From NCBI GenBank assembly GCA_018399495.1, contig JAGYOG010000029.1, positions 1 to 33,023 of the forward strand: a DNA stretch of 33,023 nucleotides, given 5' to 3'. The notes beneath the pieces are model-generated. The model saw nothing but the letters and a program-made list of their open reading frames with translations, was not told the DNA's origin and did no database searches. Shown one piece after another: positions 7,459-16,443 of this stretch (its first letter is position 1; each line of letters starts with the position of its first letter). The stretch comes from Sphaerochaeta sp. (lineage in GTDB: Bacteria; Spirochaetota; Spirochaetia; Sphaerochaetales; Sphaerochaetaceae). The position numbers were made by a program, and so were the translations under genes.

Positions 7459-7556
7459 ATCCACCTCCAAAAAGTTGTTCACCAGTATGGCTGATATCCC
7501 TCCCGGAGGCAAGACAAGTGAGTTTTCCTCTTGATTACTTAACAAATATATAGTAT

Positions 7557-8390
7557 ATGAAGAGTATGAGTACCGTTTTGATTGGAACTTCAGGCTACAG
7601 CTATACCGAGTGGATAGGACCAGTGTATGCACAGGGGACCAAGCGTGAGGATTTCCTCGCCCAATATGCCCAACTGTTTCCCACAGTGGAGCTGAACTTC
7701 AGCTACTATCGCATGCCTGATGCCACGCAACTTGCAGCAATGCACAAGAGCGCTTCGTCCCTCCAATTTTCCATCAAGGCTCACCAGAGTCTTACCCATA
7801 CCATTGATCCAGCTTCCTGGAGGGAACAGGCACTCTCGTTCTCCCATGCCATTGAACCACTGGCTGAAAGCCAAGTGCTCAGTGCTGTCCTCCTGCAATT
7901 CCCCTACTCGTTTCACTATGAAGTGGCAGAGCGCAAATATCTGGATTCGCTCATTAAGACCCTTGCCCCCTTCCCGCTTGCCATCGAATTCAGGAACAGC
8001 AGCTGGTACAACAACCGTACCCTCGACTCACTACGAGAGAGGAATATAGCCATTGCTTCTCTTGACCTGCCCTCGGTGAAAGGCAATCCTCCCATGATGG
8101 ATGTAAAAACCAGCAGCTCACTTGCCTACATCAGGCTCCACGGGAGAAATGAGGAGACTTGGTGGGGATCTGATAGTGCAAGCCGTTATGATTATCTGTA
8201 CAGTGCGAAGGAACTTACCAATCTACTTGGTAGGATTCAATCGTTTACCACCCATACACAGAAGGTACTCATCTACTTCAACAACCATTGCAGAGGTCAG
8301 GCAGTAGCCAATGCGCTGACGCTGTACCAGTTGGCAGTGGGAGGCAAAGCATGCAACCAACAGGTGCAAGCATTATCCATATCAATGTAA
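7557..8390 (+). CDS. DUF72 (YecE-like) TIM-barrel protein
   Basis: The family signature is clear: IGTSGYSYTEWIGPVY near the N-terminus, then the VELNFSYYRMP segment, AIEFRNSSWYN, YIRLHGR and the C-terminal YFNNHCRGQAVANAL. DUF72 proteins fold as TIM barrels with a probable metal or nucleic-acid-related role; their reaction is not established. ATG at 7557 is used here, but the second ATG at 7566 is also possible, and neither has a strong ribosome site. The 3' end overlaps the next gene by 40 bases, so DUF72 is translationally tied to an ImuB-like and a DnaE2-like polymerase. That placement suggests a role in damage tolerance, possibly in the position usually held by ImuA (inference). Length about 275 residues, somewhat over the usual 240-260. 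Confidence 0.88.
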   Translation: MKSMSTVLIGTSGYSYTEWIGPVYAQGTKREDFLAQYAQLFPTVELNFSYYRMPDATQLAAMHKSASSLQFSIKAHQSLTHTIDPASWREQALSFSHAIEPLAESQVLSAVLLQFPYSFHYEVAERKYLDSLIKTLAPFPLAIEFRNSSWYNNRTLDSLRERNIAIASLDLPSVKGNPPMMDVKTSSSLAYIRLHGRNEETWWGSDSASRYDYLYSAKELTNLLGRIQSFTTHTQKVLIYFNNHCRGQAVANALTLYQLAVGGKACNQQVQALSISM

Positions 8391-9526
8391 CCGATTTTGC
8401 AGCGGCGGTAGCGGTTGCAAAGAATCCAAGTCTCTCTGAAACTCCATTTGTAGTCGCCTTGGAGGAATCAGCAAGGACTGTCGTACTCACCCCATCCCGC
8501 CGAGCGTGGGAGGAGGGGGTACGGACCGGCATGCCCCTCCGCCTTGCAAAGCAGATGATTCCCTCCCTGCAGGTACTCCCTTGGGACAGTCAAAGCACGG
8601 GGGAAGCCGATGCAGCAATCGCCACCATCGCACAAGCATATTCCCCCAGCATCCAGTGTGATCGGGGCGGTCATATCTATCTGGACATGCAGGGAACCAC
8701 ACGTCTCTTCGGCCCGGTAGTGGATAGCGCAGTACAGATTCGGGGAGAGATCCGGAAGAAGCTGAACCTTGAAGCTTCCGTGGCCGTAGCCTCCAACAAA
8801 CTGGTTGCAAAGGTGGGTACCCGTACCACTCGCCCTGCCGGATTGATTCAGGTAAGGGAGGGAGATGAGGCCTCATTCCTTGCTTGGCAGGATGTTTCCT
8901 TGCTGAGCGGTGTGGGTTCTGCCACGGCCCGGCTGCTCTCTGTGGCTGGGATTACGACAATTGGCCAGATTGCCGCCCTTGAGAATGATCAGGTACTAGC
9001 CTTTCTGGGAAAACGAGGCATTGCCCTCCGTAACGCCGCCCGCGGACTGGATAGCAGCCCACTACAAAACGGATTGTCAGAGAAGCGGATTGTGCAGAGA
9101 AAAATCAGCTTTGCTGAGCCAATCCTCGAGATGGATTCTCTCAAGGCCGCTGTGGTTGTTGCTGGGGAAGATGCTGCCTTGGCTATGCGATCTGCAGGAC
9201 TTGGTTCGGCAAAGATTCACATAGCGTTGCTTTACAGCGACGGAAGAAGAAGCGAGGCTTCCCATCGCACCAAGGGACAGTGGGTCTATGACCATGAAAT
9301 CACCCTTGTCGCATGGAAGGTTGCACAGTTGGCAGCAAGCCGTAGGGTACGTATCCTCTCTTGTTCTCTCTCCCTCGCCGAACTCTCCCCACTCGCACCG
9401 ACACTGGACCTCATCCTTCCCGATGCACAGCATCGCTCTGATTCCCTACAGCAATCAGTTGACCGAATGCGCCATAAGTTTGGTCCTGGTATCCTGACCC
9501 ATGGGGCAGCACTTGCCCATGCGTAG
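8351..9526 (+). CDS. imuB: ImuB-like inactive Y-family DNA polymerase
   Basis: This 391-residue protein has a Y-family core, a helix-hairpin-helix region (SLLSGVGSATARLL, about 183-200) and a little-finger domain. The catalytic acids are gone: where Pol IV has HVDMD this reads HINVT (Asp to Asn at 12), and where Pol IV has DEAYLD this reads GHIYLD (Asp-Glu to Gly-His at 107-108). That is the hallmark of ImuB, which serves as a clamp-binding adaptor for DnaE2. PTLDLILPD (350-358) sits where relatives carry a QLxLF clamp motif, but with Thr instead of Gln. The frame extends upstream to 8288; I choose ATG 8351 because GGAGG lies six bases before it. It overlaps DUF72 by 40 bases and the DnaE2 gene by 26 or fewer. 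Confidence 0.85.
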   Translation: MQPTGASIIHINVTDFAAAVAVAKNPSLSETPFVVALEESARTVVLTPSRRAWEEGVRTGMPLRLAKQMIPSLQVLPWDSQSTGEADAAIATIAQAYSPSIQCDRGGHIYLDMQGTTRLFGPVVDSAVQIRGEIRKKLNLEASVAVASNKLVAKVGTRTTRPAGLIQVREGDEASFLAWQDVSLLSGVGSATARLLSVAGITTIGQIAALENDQVLAFLGKRGIALRNAARGLDSSPLQNGLSEKRIVQRKISFAEPILEMDSLKAAVVVAGEDAALAMRSAGLGSAKIHIALLYSDGRRSEASHRTKGQWVYDHEITLVAWKVAQLAASRRVRILSCSLSLAELSPLAPTLDLILPDAQHRSDSLQQSVDRMRHKFGPGILTHGAALAHA

Positions 9527-12446
9527 CCGCCTAGCCCTGAGCACAGCCTACTCCCTTCTCTTCTCCCCGGTGGCAGTGGATGAACTCTTCGACCGACTAG
9601 ATTCCATGCAGGTAAAACAGGTTGCCATCACAGACCGTGACAACCTCTATGGCTATCCTGTCTACCGGGAAGCAGCAAAAGAGAGAGGGATTTCCCTTGT
9701 CTGTGCGTGTCTGCTTACCGAGAAGACGGGAGACCTCTTTGCCTTTGTCCAGGATCAGAGGGGCTATGAGCTGCTCTGCAAGCTCATCAGCAAGAGGAAT
9801 CTTGACCCTACCTTCTCATACAGCCCTACACTCAAGCAAACATCAGAAGGACTTGTGCTGGCAACCACAAGCAGTGCAATCCTTACCCAGCTTGCCGGTG
9901 CAGGAGCAGAGCTGTATGGTGCAGTCAGCCCTGACTCCCTGCAGATCGTAACCACCGCGAAGAAACTTGCCGTCCCCCTTCTCGCCATCGATGGGGCATT
10001 TCTCCTTGCAGAGAATCAGCGTGAGGTTCACCAGGTACTTCGAGCCATTGCCCTTCATAAAAGTGTGGGTAGCCTTACAGATGATGAGTATTTCCAAAAG
10101 GGTGGCATCTTGCTTGAACAGAAGGAGTGGGAGCAGGTCTTTGCCCCCTGGCCAGAGTCCATGGAGAACGCACAGCGTCTCAGGCCGTATGACCCGTTTT
10201 CCTCCTCCCTGATCTTTCCCACGTATCCGGTCACTGAAGAGGACAACGCAGAAGAGGAACTGAAAAGTAGGGTCTACCGGGGCGCAGAGAATCGCTATGG
10301 GGAGATCAATGACGCCATCATGGAACGCATCGAATATGAGCTAGGCATCATCAACGAGAAGGGGTTCGCTCCCTATTTCCTCGTGATGCACGATATCGTG
10401 CTGATGAGTAACAGGACCTGCGGCAGGGGATCAGGAGCTGCATCCATCGTCTCCTACAGTCTATTCATCACCAATGTGGACCCCATTGCCCATCATCTGT
10501 ACTTTGAACGATTTCTCTCCCTTTCCCGCCAGGATCCACCGGACATCGATGTTGACTTTGCATGGGATGAACGAGACGGGATTTTTGCTGCAGTATTTGA
10601 ACGCTTTGGCATTGAGCATTGTGCAAGGGTTGCAAACCACAACCGGTTCCGACTCCGCTCCGCCATTCGCGAAACAGCCCGATGCTATGGACTGAGTGAC
10701 GCACAGATTACCAAAGCGATAGAGACATTGTTCATGAAGGGGGTTGATGCCCTGCTTGATCCACTTTGGCAGATCATCGTCCGTATTGCCACCGCGCTTG
10801 ACCGACTTCCCAAAGAGATATCCATGCACTGCGGGGGGTTAGTCATCACACCCAAGCCGGTAACCTGTTATACCCCGATCCTTCGCTCAGCCGATGGGTA
10901 TCCCTTGCTGAGTTGGGAGAAGGATGGGACAGAACAGGCAGGCTTTGTAAAGATTGACCTCCTGGGTAACCGATCCCTTGCAGTCATCCGTGACACCCTG
11001 CAAAACCTCCGGGAAGAAGGGCTGTTCATCGATGAGCAAACCTGGCAGCCTGCAGAAGATGCTGAAACAGTCGAAGCACTCGCCTGCGGGAACTCAATGG
11101 GTGTCTTCTACATTGAATCCCCTGCAATGAGGCAGTTGCAGAAGAAAACAGGGCGAGGAGACTTTGCCCATATCGTCATTCACTCTTCCATCATCAGACC
11201 TGCAGCAAACAAGTACATTAATGAGTACGTCCAACGATTGAAAGGCAAACGGTGGGAACCCCTGCATCCCCGGCTTGCCTATATCCTAAATGAAACATAC
11301 GGAATTCTCTGTTATCAGGAAGATGTCTCCAAGACAGCCGTTGCCTTGGCCGGCTTCAATCAAGCTGATGCTGATCAGCTTCGCAAGGTCATCGCAAAGA
11401 AAGCAGCCGGAAAACGGTTGCAGGCATTCAGGGACCAGTTTTTTGCAGGCTGCCATAAGAATGGGGTAACCTCTGCTGTCACAGAACAGATCTGGCTGAT
11501 GATGCTCTCCTTCGATGGATACTCTTTTTGCAAGCCCCACTCAGCAAGCTATGCCATGGTCTCCTTCCAAAGTGCATATCTCAGGGTCCATCACCCGGCC
11601 CATTTCATGGCTGCCGTATTGACCAACCAAGGTGGATATTACCGACCCCAGGCGTACATCAGTGAAGCAAGAAGAATGGGGCTTACCATAGCCGGTCCCG
11701 ATATCAATACCAGCAGGATCGCATATTGGGCTGAAGGGAACACCCTCATCATCGGCCTAATGGCTATCGCTGAACTCAGCAGAAATGCCATGAAACGAAT
11801 TATTGAAGAGAGAAAACAAGGTGGACGGTTCGCCTCCCTGGAAGAGACTTCCGGCCGGATCTCTCTGGATAGGGAAGATATGGTTGCCCTAGTAGCCTCA
11901 GGCGCGTTTGACTCATTGGCACCCGAGAGAAGACGAAGTGACCAGCTCAGGATCCTGCTTACCACCACACGTGCCGCCCAAGCCTATGGACAGGCCGACC
12001 TCTTTGCCACCCCTCGGTCCTACAGCAAACAAGAGCAACTTCCTGTTGCCGTACAACGACCATTCAGTAAAGAAGAGCTCCACAGTGAGTTTGCTTCCTT
12101 GGGTTTCCTCAGGGATTATCATCCCTTGGTCCTCTATGCACACCTCCTACGTTCGGTCCACCGTATCAAAGCCTGTGAGATCGATCAGAATGTAGAGCGG
12201 TATGTCACGCTTATCGGTTACCAGATCACCCAGAAGCAGGTATTGACCAAAACTGGAGAAAGTATGAGCTTTGTCTCCTTTGAGGATGAGACGGCACTCT
12301 ATGAGACTGTGCTGTTCCCTGACCTTTATAAGCGTCTCTACCCTTTGCTGGCAGGTCGCTGGCCGCTGTTGGTCTTCGGCTTGGTAAAGAGTGATGAGGG
12401 TGCCTTGATCGTAGAGGTCCAGAACCTGAGAAAACTGGGCTCCTAG
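9501..12446 (+). CDS. dnaE2: DnaE2/ImuC-type error-prone DNA polymerase III alpha subunit
   Basis: This C-family polymerase of 981 residues is shorter than replicative DnaE (about 1160) and near DnaE2 length. Order: PHP domain about 8-75, polymerase core about 290-700 with the Gly-Ser motif CGRGSGAASIVSY, helix-hairpin-helix about 725-805, OB fold about 895-980. The polymerase triad is intact: Asp350 and Asp352 in PDIDVDF, and Asp486 in VKIDLLG. The PHP metal site is degraded: the usual LHVHS is LALST, so PHP proofreading is unlikely. QADLF at 831-835 is a textbook beta-clamp motif. ATG 9501 overlaps imuB by 26 bases and lacks a clear ribosome site; ATG 9519 is an alternative. With the dead ImuB upstream, translesion synthesis is the likely role. 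Confidence 0.9.
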   Translation: MGQHLPMRSRLALSTAYSLLFSPVAVDELFDRLDSMQVKQVAITDRDNLYGYPVYREAAKERGISLVCACLLTEKTGDLFAFVQDQRGYELLCKLISKRNLDPTFSYSPTLKQTSEGLVLATTSSAILTQLAGAGAELYGAVSPDSLQIVTTAKKLAVPLLAIDGAFLLAENQREVHQVLRAIALHKSVGSLTDDEYFQKGGILLEQKEWEQVFAPWPESMENAQRLRPYDPFSSSLIFPTYPVTEEDNAEEELKSRVYRGAENRYGEINDAIMERIEYELGIINEKGFAPYFLVMHDIVLMSNRTCGRGSGAASIVSYSLFITNVDPIAHHLYFERFLSLSRQDPPDIDVDFAWDERDGIFAAVFERFGIEHCARVANHNRFRLRSAIRETARCYGLSDAQITKAIETLFMKGVDALLDPLWQIIVRIATALDRLPKEISMHCGGLVITPKPVTCYTPILRSADGYPLLSWEKDGTEQAGFVKIDLLGNRSLAVIRDTLQNLREEGLFIDEQTWQPAEDAETVEALACGNSMGVFYIESPAMRQLQKKTGRGDFAHIVIHSSIIRPAANKYINEYVQRLKGKRWEPLHPRLAYILNETYGILCYQEDVSKTAVALAGFNQADADQLRKVIAKKAAGKRLQAFRDQFFAGCHKNGVTSAVTEQIWLMMLSFDGYSFCKPHSASYAMVSFQSAYLRVHHPAHFMAAVLTNQGGYYRPQAYISEARRMGLTIAGPDINTSRIAYWAEGNTLIIGLMAIAELSRNAMKRIIEERKQGGRFASLEETSGRISLDREDMVALVASGAFDSLAPERRRSDQLRILLTTTRAAQAYGQADLFATPRSYSKQEQLPVAVQRPFSKEELHSEFASLGFLRDYHPLVLYAHLLRSVHRIKACEIDQNVERYVTLIGYQITQKQVLTKTGESMSFVSFEDETALYETVLFPDLYKRLYPLLAGRWPLLVFGLVKSDEGALIVEVQNLRKLGS

Positions 12447-13825
12447 GTGGATGTCTCTGCCTCAATTCGCTTGAGATAGGCTTTCATGTTGAACTTTCGC
12501 TCCAGACCTCGGTCATTCATATAGCGGATGTTCCCAAATATGGGTCTCTCCACCCAAGGACGATCATGCTTGCCGAAACACCAGGCAACCCCGGCATATC
12601 CATTTGGATCGCGTCCATCTGCCTGGTAGGTATTGTTCAACCTCAGAGCCCATGAAAACCCCTGTTTGGGAGTAGGACTCCACTCCAGGATCTTCTTTCC
12701 CCAATACATCCGCAGATAGTTGTGCATTCCACCCAATACAACCAACTCCTTCTGTGCAGCATTCCAGTAGGGGTCATGGGTCTCTCCATTTTCAAGCTCT
12801 TCATAGCTGTAGGTAACTGGACGAGGATCTTCCTCATGTGTCTGTAGCGTACGCCTCGCCCAAGCCGGCAAACCTTCCCAAATATCATAGAAGGGGTTGA
12901 AAGCTACAAAGTTATAGGCAAGTTCACGTCTTACGATCAACTGTTCCAAGAACGCAGGCACATCACTTATATCCAGATCTTTTACCGCGTGGTAGATGGT
13001 AACTGGACTGATCTGCCCAAAGTGAAGATATGGACTAAGACCACTACTGTGATTCAATGCTGGATCATTTCGTTTTGTATCGTACCCGACCAGTTTTCGT
13101 TCGATGAAGTCATCCAGCTTGGAGAAGGCTTCTGTACTTCCCCCCCTCAAATGCAAGGCAAAGCCACCCTTTTGCTCAATTCCCAAGGATTCAACAAGCA
13201 ATGGAATGTTCCCAAGATCAGCTGATTCAAAGGGAAATTCCAAGGAGAAACTCTTCGTAGTGACCTCAGGCAGCAGAATTTCTTGTGCAAAGTAGGAGAT
13301 CATAGGTTCTATCTTTCTTCTCAGGGTTGCAGCAGAGTATTCCTCCTTGTCACTCACCGCCTCAACGGGCACCACCACATTTGCTTCCACCTCATAGAAG
13401 GAACACGCAAGGAAAGCGGAAACCTCTTTTCTCCAGGATCGTTCAATGTGGGTATATGCCCGGTCGACTATAAGACAGGCAATTTGTGATTGCAGTTTTT
13501 TCAATCCTTCCACCACTCCGAAAGAAGAAATAATCATGGGAATGGAGCGTTCCAAGAGCTCCTGTTGTACTTCTTTGATGCCTTCCAACATAAATCTATA
13601 GTGCCGTGCTGTGGCTTCTGCAAAATGTGGGTTGATTCCAAAATATACAGCCAATGGCTTTCTGAGAGCATTTGCATTCTCTATGGCGAAGGCGAGTGCT
13701 TCATTCTGCTGAACACGCCCGGAAGCTTGCATCCAGTACACTACATACTGCTTCTCATGCAATGTCGGCTTGTTATTGATTTTTCTGATTCTCTGTTCAT
13801 CTACCATTATGCCATAGCGTACCAT
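12443..13825 (-). CDS. phr: Class II CPD photolyase
   Basis: This 460-residue flavoenzyme splits UV-induced cyclobutane pyrimidine dimers using light. The class II signature is clear: SGLSPYLHFGQIS (261-273), the MHNYLRMYWGKKILEW segment (367-382) and DGRDPNGYAGVAWCFG (403-418), followed by a short C-terminal tail. The N-terminal half is the photolyase alpha/beta domain. The gene converges on dnaE2 and overlaps its stop by four bases (CTAG), so no terminator separates them. ATG 13825 is taken; ATG 13807 is possible and neither has a strong ribosome site. A terminator-like hairpin lies just upstream (13845-13877), so it is probably transcribed separately from the lipoprotein gene. Length is normal for the class. 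Confidence 0.95.
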   Translation of the reverse strand: MVRYGIMVDEQRIRKINNKPTLHEKQYVVYWMQASGRVQQNEALAFAIENANALRKPLAVYFGINPHFAEATARHYRFMLEGIKEVQQELLERSIPMIISSFGVVEGLKKLQSQIACLIVDRAYTHIERSWRKEVSAFLACSFYEVEANVVVPVEAVSDKEEYSAATLRRKIEPMISYFAQEILLPEVTTKSFSLEFPFESADLGNIPLLVESLGIEQKGGFALHLRGGSTEAFSKLDDFIERKLVGYDTKRNDPALNHSSGLSPYLHFGQISPVTIYHAVKDLDISDVPAFLEQLIVRRELAYNFVAFNPFYDIWEGLPAWARRTLQTHEEDPRPVTYSYEELENGETHDPYWNAAQKELVVLGGMHNYLRMYWGKKILEWSPTPKQGFSWALRLNNTYQADGRDPNGYAGVAWCFGKHDRPWVERPIFGNIRYMNDRGLERKFNMKAYLKRIEAETST

Positions 13826-14843: not shown

Positions 14844-16443
14844 ATGGCTAAACAACTCAAAACCGGTGCAGAGATTATCGCACGAAGCCTTGAGGATCTG
14901 GGTGTACAATATATTTTCGGTCACACAGGGGCCGCCATTCTGCCAGTCATGGATGATCTCGCCAAGAGCTCAATTGAAATTGTCGTAAATGCCAATGAAC
15001 AGTGCGCTACTTTCGGTGCCGCAGGGTACTCAAAAAGTAGTGAACAAGTCGGCGTTGCCATTGTTACCAGTGGACCAACCATCACGAATGCCCTTACAGC
15101 CGTCGCTGACAGTATTCCTCTTCTGGTAATAGCCAGTCAGGTTCCTGTGCATAAGCTTGGCACTGACTCTTTCCAGCATATTGATGTGACCTCTGTATTT
15201 GGACCCACAACAAAGAAGGTGTACTCAGTAAAAGCATTGAACAACCTTGAACATGTTATCAAGGATGCCTACTTCCTGGCATAGTCAGGGAAGCGTGGAC
15301 TGGTTGTGGTTGATCTTCCGATGAACTTGCAACAGAAAGCGGCTGGGTATGAAGCACTTCCCCTTGGACAGTTCAGCACCGTCTATGACCAGGATGTATA
15401 TCTCTCCTCCTCACAATGCAAACAGTTTTTTGACCTGCTCATGCAAGCAGAGCACCCACTCCTGTATTTGGGTGGTGAGCTTAACAGTACACGTGGCAGT
15501 GAGGTGATTCAATGTACGATTTGCAATTCCATCGGTAAATACCCTCTTTCTTGCGATTGGAGTCCGCTGGGATGACCGTGGAGCAGAAAAATTAGGTTTT
15601 GCCATTCAGGCGAAGATCGCGTTCATTGATATACATGCAGACAAGGTGCAGCAAATCCGAGGTGAACGACGGTCTGTATTCTCCTTTATTGGAAACGCCG
15701 CAACCATTCTCCATGACCTTTCTTATTGGGCAGATGCCCATGACCTACAGATCTCTATTGATGGGGGGGGGGTGAGACCATGCGGAGCATCTTAAACGTT
15801 ACTGGCTAATCAATATAAGAGTGATGCGAATATAATTCAGATGGCACAGGTTCTGAAGACCTTGGATTCACTGATCGACGATTCTACCATCATTACGACA
15901 GGGGTGGGTAATCATCAACTGTATGCTGCACAGTACATTCGATGTCAAAAGCCTCGATCATTCCTCACCTGTGGAGCTTTTGGAACCATTGGAAGTGGCA
16001 TGCCACTGGCGGTAGGCTCTTCCCAGGCAAACAAGAACAAACAAGTACTCGTGGTAGACGACGACGGAAGTTTCAGAATGAATATGGGAGAACTTTTCAC
16101 TATCGGAACTAATTGCCTCCCCATCAAGATCCTATTGCTCAACAACAATGCTGATGTCATGGTCTACAATCTTGAGGATGCTGCATACGAGAGCAGGTAC
16201 TCAGCCTCTTGTAGAAATGAGAATGTCATCTTTGTCAAGATGGCAGAACTGTGTAATTTCTCCTACAGCAGAAGGATTGAAAAGAAAGAGGAGATAGAAC
16301 CAGCACTCAAACAGTGGATGGAGAGTAAGGGACCAAGCTTGCTTGAAGTGATCACCGACCGAGGGGAAGTAGTAGTCTACCCGGTTGTACGGTCTGGTGC
16401 TTCTTATGTAAATATGGATCTTGGTCCCTATATCAAAGAATAG
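14844..16443 (+). pseudogene. ilvB: Broken acetolactate-synthase-like thiamine diphosphate enzyme
   Basis: Pieces of one TPP-enzyme gene can be read in succession. The N-terminal part has the catalytic-Glu region (ANEQCATFGAAGYS) and IVTSGPTITNALT. The central part is FLAIGVRWDDRGAEKLGF. The C-terminal part has GVGNHQLYAAQYI and a TPP-binding stretch (DDDGSFRMN to NNN). Lesions: an in-frame TAG at 15282-15284; a deletion of roughly 115 bases with a frame change near 15531-15537, between NSIG and NTLFLAIG; a G10 tract at 15763-15772 with a frame change; and a compensating shift near 15808. About four residues are also missing near the N-terminal ALTAVADS. The first Gly of the GDG motif is Asp. 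Ilv-type synthesis is the ancestral role; the product cannot be functional as read. Confidence 0.85.
15763..15772 (+). repeat. G10 homopolymer in the ilvB-like pseudogene
   Basis: Ten consecutive G lie between the central and C-terminal pieces, where the frame changes. Such tracts slip readily during replication and are also prone to sequencing error. Confidence 0.8.

Follow-up and report, generated by a model that had tools for sequence, protein, structure and literature searches.

The three genes at 7557..12446 of a 33,023-nucleotide (nt) contig of Sphaerochaeta sp. (GenBank assembly GCA_018399495.1, contig JAGYOG010000029.1, positions 1 to 33,023; this whole stretch is referred to here as the window) raise the question of what a DUF72 protein does at the head of a putative operon for error-prone DNA synthesis. 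Papers are cited below by PubMed Central number and for what the accessible parts of their text contain; in one of these, DUF72 is described as having no assigned function (PMC11791011). The genes read DUF72, then a catalytically dead Y-family protein, which we call iPolY, then a DnaE2-like polymerase. An initial annotation, made from sequence alone, had named them DUF72-ImuB-DnaE2 and placed DUF72 in the position of a missing ImuA. We favor a different reading, and give it a probability of about two in three: that these genes form a damage-inducible translesion operon, DUF72-iPolY-DnaE2 (with lexA in front in most Desulfobacterota loci), in which DUF72 would act on the lesion or the template.

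Gene order and inheritance of the cassette

Open reading frames (ORFs) and Pfam matches both supported the three overlapping genes of the initial annotation, which lie on the same strand in head-to-tail overlaps:

7566..8390, + strand: DUF72 protein (the listed ORF begins at 7557; ATG 7566 is preferred)
8351..9526, + strand: iPolY (the "ImuB" of the initial annotation), a DinB-length, catalytically dead Y-family protein of 391 amino acids (aa) from ATG 8351
9501..12446, + strand: DnaE2-like C-family polymerase of 981 aa, starting at 9501 or 9519

The DUF72 ORF matched PF01904 (E 1.3e-56, residues 24-258), iPolY matched PF00817 (E 8.3e-27) and the polymerase matched PF07733 (E 3.2e-57); its finger, HhH and PHP domains were also matched, at weaker, still clear, E-values. 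The overlap of 40 bases between the first two genes was confirmed (8351-8390), and iPolY and DnaE overlap by 26 nt (9501-9526), or by 8 nt if DnaE begins at ATG 9519.

This arrangement recurs widely. With the Y-family protein as query, 25 strong matches (at least 208 bits; next best 107.5 bits) were obtained from 100 genomes of the order. DUF72 immediately preceded iPolY, in the same orientation, in 24 of the 25 loci, and DnaE was downstream in 24. In G097, the one case without DUF72, a contig break has put DUF72 and 33 matched N-terminal iPolY residues on another contig, and the one locus without DnaE, L027, reaches the end of its contig. The profiles used to find the three genes were built from these same loci; an independent check for DUF72, by Pfam search of the 100 genomes, found the family in 28 of them, comprising all 25 with iPolY and three of the 75 without it (Fisher p 1.4e-20, a guide only as the species are not independent). 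Searching 392 genomes across the phylum yielded 19 further loci (L125-L143) from other Spirochaetota families, with DUF72 upstream in 19/19 and DnaE in 17/19 within the available sequence.

At least 80 named loci were obtained from a public genome collection, and the counts that follow are among the matches listed, leaving out of the flank counts any locus in which the 5' flank of iPolY is shorter than 900 nt or the 3' flank shorter than 600 nt. DUF72 was upstream in 23/24 and DnaE downstream in 23/23 named Spirochaete loci, and in 33/35 and 31/35 Desulfobacterota/delta loci, respectively. The corresponding counts were 0/13 and 13/14 for Nitrospira-type loci and 0/2 and 1/2 for Gemmatimonad loci. 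The one named Spirochaete locus without DUF72 upstream, L057, has the same iPolY as G097. The sets overlap: for 15 of the 25 named Spirochaete loci, the same iPolY also occurs at an order locus. No iPolY is common to the 19 phylum loci and the named loci. Also outside the counts are repeats of family loci (L118-L124) and three active DinBs from the phylum search (L144-L146; D with DE) that have neither DUF72 nor DnaE adjacent. One locus titled Burkholderiaceae (L040), whose iPolY is 61% identical to that of the window, is probably misbinned. The genes overlap in close relatives of the window, are tightly spaced in other Spirochaetes and have wider gaps in some Desulfobacterota. Gene-order conservation is far beyond chance, and the proposed adjacency extends well past a few close strains, into two phyla (25 loci in the order, 19 in the phylum, and the Desulfobacterota). 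A uracil-DNA glycosylase superfamily gene was observed after iPolY-DnaE in one Nitrospira locus that has no DUF72 (L102:10197-10838).

The three genes are also inherited together. Tree distances of DUF72, iPolY and DnaE correlate across 11 Spirochaete loci (r 0.77-0.88) and 16 Desulfobacterota loci (r 0.79-0.85), with 0/999 permutations as high in each case, which fits transmission as a unit and is no proof of contact. In a quick DnaE tree with few outgroups, on long branches, the cassette DnaEs were united in a single clade (SH-aLRT 100), and two plasmid ImuCs, like the DnaEs of Deinococcus and Rubrobacter, fell outside it. Inside this clade the Spirochaete and Desulfobacterota copies grouped together (97), to the exclusion of the Nitrospira and Gemmatimonad copies. 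The simplest history on this tree would be that DUF72 was gained once, before the split, or was exchanged by the phyla, and two loci without DUF72 (L073 and L108) look like losses because they are nested inside the Desulfobacterota. The iPolY tree disagrees with the DnaE tree in placing two Nitrospira rows beside the Desulfobacterota (88). All cassette DUF72s fell on one side of a branch in the DUF72 tree, with support of only 59/93; they fit one origin, weakly, and two independent origins in the two phyla were not shown.

The promoter, its putative operator and lexA

Upstream of the Spirochaete cassettes lies a predicted sigma70-like promoter whose spacer is a putative operator. In the window its parts are:

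7531..7536, + strand: -35 element TTGATT; the TTG abuts the 5' side of the operator in 44/46 distinct upstream regions
7537..7554, + strand: operator-like imperfect palindrome, consensus ACTATACNNNNGTATAGT, scoring 11/14 here and filling the promoter spacer
7554..7559, + strand: -10 element, TATATG here; the commonest form is TATATC

The operator scored at least 10/14 in 46 of 49 distinct Spirochaete upstream regions. Among 1340 letter-shuffled control regions (60 of them empty), 101 scored at least 10 and 14 at least 11. In the 46 operator-bearing regions a TATAAT-like hexamer starts at the last base of the operator, and in 36 of them the start codon lies exactly 6 nt past this hexamer. It is these fixed distances, together with the abutting TTG, that suggest a promoter with the operator as its spacer. 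They also bear on where DUF72 begins: the codon at 7557 falls within the -10 element, and of the 46 operator-bearing regions that of the window is the only one with a start at this place, so that translation probably starts at ATG 7566. The cassette mRNA is probably leaderless.

We searched 13 genomes for the operator pattern, counting palindromes on both strands. In 10 of the 13 the exact pattern occurred once only, and this site was the one at the cassette. There was no exact match in G008, where the cassette site has one mismatch, and in G276 and G293 exact sites were found elsewhere only. Relative to a reversed control the pattern was rarer in 10 genomes, equal in G276 and commoner in G293 and G390. 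In the genome of the window, the cassette site was the sole one with up to one mismatch, versus 10 matches of the reversed control, and a genome-wide LexA box is not supported there; no obvious operator copy was seen upstream of its recA. In G276 the two exact matches (L227, L233) precede, by 44 and 26 nt, frames whose translations resemble an AraC-type regulator and an acetyltransferase, so other genes in that lineage may share the operator. The one in G293 (L226) is inside an apparent CRISPR-like repeat region and is probably a chance match. Of the remaining, numerous one-mismatch loci, inspection covered only eight, alongside two cassette sites.

A regulator gene accompanies the cassette in the second phylum. 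Among the matches listed, 32/37 Desulfobacterota/delta loci have lexA on the iPolY strand, no more than 3 kb upstream of that gene, and in the 31 of them that have DUF72 as well, lexA ended 21-797 nt before DUF72; L073 has lexA and no DUF72. It was found within 3 kb upstream at 0/25 named Spirochaete loci, and a lexA match was also present at one of 16 Nitrospira-type loci (L093). The genome of the window has a LexA-type gene elsewhere, and we infer that a LexA-type repressor acts at the cassette promoter. On a mobilizable plasmid of Desulfosarcina ovata (L148) the annotation reads lexA, DUF72, "hypothetical protein" (this is iPolY) and DNA polymerase III alpha, and transposase genes lie a few kb to either side of the cluster. 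By eye, many Desulfobacterota loci (e.g., L066, L079 and L089) have TTTACATT/TTGACATT repeats before lexA, possibly the operator of the cassette lexA itself.

iPolY, DnaE and the place of ImuA

The residues on which the two polymerase-like proteins were classified are encoded at the following positions:

8384..8386, + strand: codon of N12, which replaces the first catalytic Asp (alignment)
8669..8674, + strand: codons of G107-H108, which replace the catalytic Asp-Glu (alignment)
9407..9415, + strand: beta-clamp-type motif position, DLI in the window and DLF in near relatives
9434..9502, + strand: RecA-N-terminus-like stretch, iPolY tail residues 362-384 (hhalign)
10539..10559, + strand: PDIDVDF, first two catalytic Asp of DnaE (triad alignment)
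10950..10970, + strand: KIDLLGN, third catalytic Asp of DnaE (triad alignment)
11991..12005, + strand: QADLF, DnaE clamp-type motif, variable among relatives, often xxxLF, and blank in 8/62 rows

The loss of the three catalytic acids claimed for the Y-family protein was borne out. N12, G107 and H108 align with D, D and E of E. coli DinB, which we take to be its catalytic residues. N with GH was present in 95 of 137 aligned iPolY rows; D with DE was present in only nine, every one a DinB-type comparator. The genome of the window has two Y-family genes, iPolY and one of DinB type, and two Spirochaete genomes, G311 and G394, each have two strong iPolY matches. The DLI/DLF motif appears to be clamp-type, and a role in clamp binding is suggested by the literature on Y-family tails. 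Beyond it, the tail resembles the RecA N-terminus, with an hhalign score of 25.7 versus a maximum of 11.3 over 50 column shuffles. This comparison used 91 iPolY tails, with duplicates and odd lengths dropped, as well as 15 cut, extended or comparator tails (L027, L060, L093, L095, L096, L100, L105, L115-L117, L138, L141, L149, L150 and L152). The window iPolY ends 7 residues past the RecA-like stretch.

DnaE, in turn, has the intact triad that had been claimed for it, with DDD in 62/62 aligned rows; these include the window twice, the replicative DnaE of the same genome and three comparators from plasmids, leaving 57 separate cassette-type rows. A second DnaE, a 1161-aa frame, lies elsewhere in the genome. 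The PHP motif reads LHNHTDFSLL in the replicative DnaE versus LALSTAYSLL in the window copy, in which the PHP histidines are lost, and the window copy is thus of DnaE2 type in the sense of a second DnaE with a disrupted PHP site. The names "ImuB" and "DnaE2" were apt insofar as a dead Y-family protein is paired with a DnaE2-like polymerase; in their canonical sense they are too specific, since iPolY is DinB-sized and DnaE falls outside the ImuC clade.

The absence of ImuA also held, in that none was found in the genome of the window with either of two profiles. The best match to NF033429 scored 50 bits (cut-off 150) and was at the RecA gene. This profile exceeded its cut-off in 0/100 order genomes, but also in 0/14 controls, which makes it weak taken alone. 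A profile from two plasmid ImuAs matched nothing at E<=1 among 13 Spirochaete genomes, and gave only matches of E>=1.7e-4, mostly frames of 350-391 aa, in 6/7 Desulfobacterota/delta genomes. Because the iPolY tail resembles RecA and no ImuA was found, RecA rather than DUF72 probably fills the place of ImuA. The placing of DUF72 there is not supported, in view of this tail, of the TIM barrel of DUF72 and of published iPolY-DnaE2 modules without ImuA. Such modules, presumably using RecA, have been described (PMC6511836; PMC12926913), so the lack of ImuA is expected for the class and is not what is new. The new element is DUF72 itself, nearly constant at the head of the cassette (behind lexA in the Desulfobacterota), a recurrent partnership unreported in the open-licence literature accessible to us; this much of the novelty first claimed remains.

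Like ImuA-ImuB-DnaE2 (ImuABC), the cassette pairs a dead Y-family protein with a live DnaE2-like polymerase. Many ImuABC mutasomes are LexA-regulated. The cassette differs in that its genome has no detected ImuA, its DnaE lies outside the ImuC/DnaE2A clade and iPolY has 391 aa, against lengths of 492 and 504 aa in two plasmid ImuBs, which by length would leave no room for an ImuB-C domain after the RecA-like motif. The cassette seems equipped to function in the manner of ImuABC; with these three features missing, it does not appear to be a canonical member. Plasmid 1 of Deinococcus deserti (L152) has a lexA-led Y-family/DnaE cluster too (LexA-family regulator, PolY, DUF6504, dnaE), but a small DUF6504 protein, ImuB-C-like in our reading, stands where the window has DUF72, and its DnaE lies outside the cassette clade. 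Features shared with DnaE2B-iPolY-RecA modules of gbDinB2-type iPolY are a dead Y-family protein with a RecA-N-terminus-like motif, a DnaE2-like partner outside the ImuC clade, no ImuA and a wide phyletic spread (PMC12926913). Within the limits of the ImuA search, neither ImuA nor ImuB was found in the genome of the window, and by these features the cassette is a candidate member of this kind. What sets it apart is the near-constant DUF72; the terms "DUF" and "Spirochaet" are absent from the main text of PMC12926913. In PolB2 mutasome neighborhoods DUF72 likewise occurs beside a damage-linked polymerase operon, and lexA is enriched there in bacteria, but the polymerase is of family B and the partners are others (PMC11791011).

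DUF72 and the proposed function of the cassette

The DUF72 protein is a TIM barrel resembling TM1631, and its Pfam match is above the cut-off. Residues E45, E144, D170, R193, H195 and R197 are invariant in 60 rows, and the barrel mouth is conserved and enzyme-like. TM1631 (1vpq) and EF0366 (1vpy/1ztv) have the same fold and share most of the barrel-mouth residues. This fold class is also that of UVDE and Endo IV; isomerases score equally, so the fold does not settle whether DUF72 is an endonuclease. The family is widespread, being present in 9/14 well-known control genomes, including E. coli, B. subtilis and two archaea. A second, distant paralogue lies apart from the cassette in the genome of the window (G000:C42:11670-12428; L002), and most cassette-bearing genomes of the order have a second DUF72 match. 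In G073, which has no iPolY, a DUF72 scoring like the cassette copies (L174) lies beside a tRNA-synthetase-like frame. The open-licence literature yielded no paper joining DUF72 with ImuB, DnaE2 or iPolY, supplementary files, where a mention is possible, being outside its reach. The only paper found with both DUF72 and a mutasome reports the gene as enriched "to some degree" near PolB2 mutasomes (PMC11791011).

We propose that a LexA-type repressor would sit on the cassette promoter until RecA filaments relieve repression. iPolY would then be a scaffold holding the primer-template, the beta clamp (through its xDLF/QxxLF motif) and RecA (through the RecA-like tail, in the stead of ImuA), and would recruit DnaE2 for error-prone synthesis without PHP proofreading. 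The least certain step is that of DUF72, which we place in the same pathway, acting on the damaged strand: it may bind a flipped-out or abasic lesion during bypass, or may incise the lesion once bypass has restored the double strand. Gene order and joint inheritance were observed; damage induction and an activity of DUF72 are what we infer. On this proposal DUF72 would be a component added to ImuA-less DnaE2 modules, with a function directly testable by deletion, and a widespread family with the structures of two members solved would gain a concrete damage-polymerase pathway from a tight operon in two phyla. A bolder version, which we hold tentatively and consider doubtful, makes DUF72 a dedicated, catalytically active lesion-processing subunit of an undescribed mutasome type (LexA-DUF72-iPolY-DnaE2-RecA), acting on an abasic or damaged template held by iPolY. 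If true, lesion-processing chemistry would give the DUF72 family its first function.

Other explanations weigh the same observations differently. The cassette may be an excision and gap-filling unit, in which DUF72 incises like UVDE or Endo IV, DnaE fills the gap and iPolY is a clamp and RecA adaptor, with bypass and mutagenesis secondary. The shared fold class and the modelling of TM1631 as an endonuclease (PMC3828134) speak for this, as does a convergent photolyase gene in the window that is near full length in five near relatives. We consider it unlikely nonetheless, given that the DUF72 fold match ties with isomerases, the window DnaE has lost its PHP histidines, the photolyase is found only as fragments in S. 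halotolerans and sets of a dead Y-family protein with DnaE2 are mutagenic where studied (PMC3919608, PMC12926913).

DUF72 may instead have an unrelated job and be a mere passenger of a stable operon, as its solitary copies (in the genome of the window, on contig C42, and on a plasmid beside sufB) and the iPolY-DnaE modules without it would allow. This is improbable in our estimate: its position before iPolY, after lexA or the operator, is kept across two phyla, its co-occurrence with iPolY is 25/25 versus 3/75, and it also occurs near another mutasome, that of PolB2 (PMC11791011). A Mesorhizobium plasmid points the same way: the nearest annotated gene upstream there, on the opposite strand at a distance of 1.3 kb, encodes an SOS response-associated peptidase. 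The model implied by the initial annotation, with DUF72 in the role of ImuA as a physical link from iPolY to DnaE, draws on DUF72 occupying the position of imuA in imuA-imuB-dnaE2 cassettes and on the failure to find ImuA. It is the RecA-like tail of iPolY and the TIM barrel fold of DUF72, with its conserved, enzyme-like mouth, that turn us from this model; related iPolY-DnaE loci do without DUF72, and in the text accessible to us neither ImuA nor DUF72 is listed for published modules of this kind (PMC12926913). We regard such a role as highly improbable.

Two neighboring features of the window were also noted. The photolyase gene, at 12443-13825 on the - strand, is convergent with the cassette and overlaps it by 4 nt; it is near full length in five close relatives and fragmented in S. 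halotolerans (L039). Further downstream, at 14844-16443 on the + strand, the gene of a TPP-dependent enzyme is apparently broken, with its N-terminal domain in one ORF (14844-15284) and its C-terminal domain in another (15841-16443).

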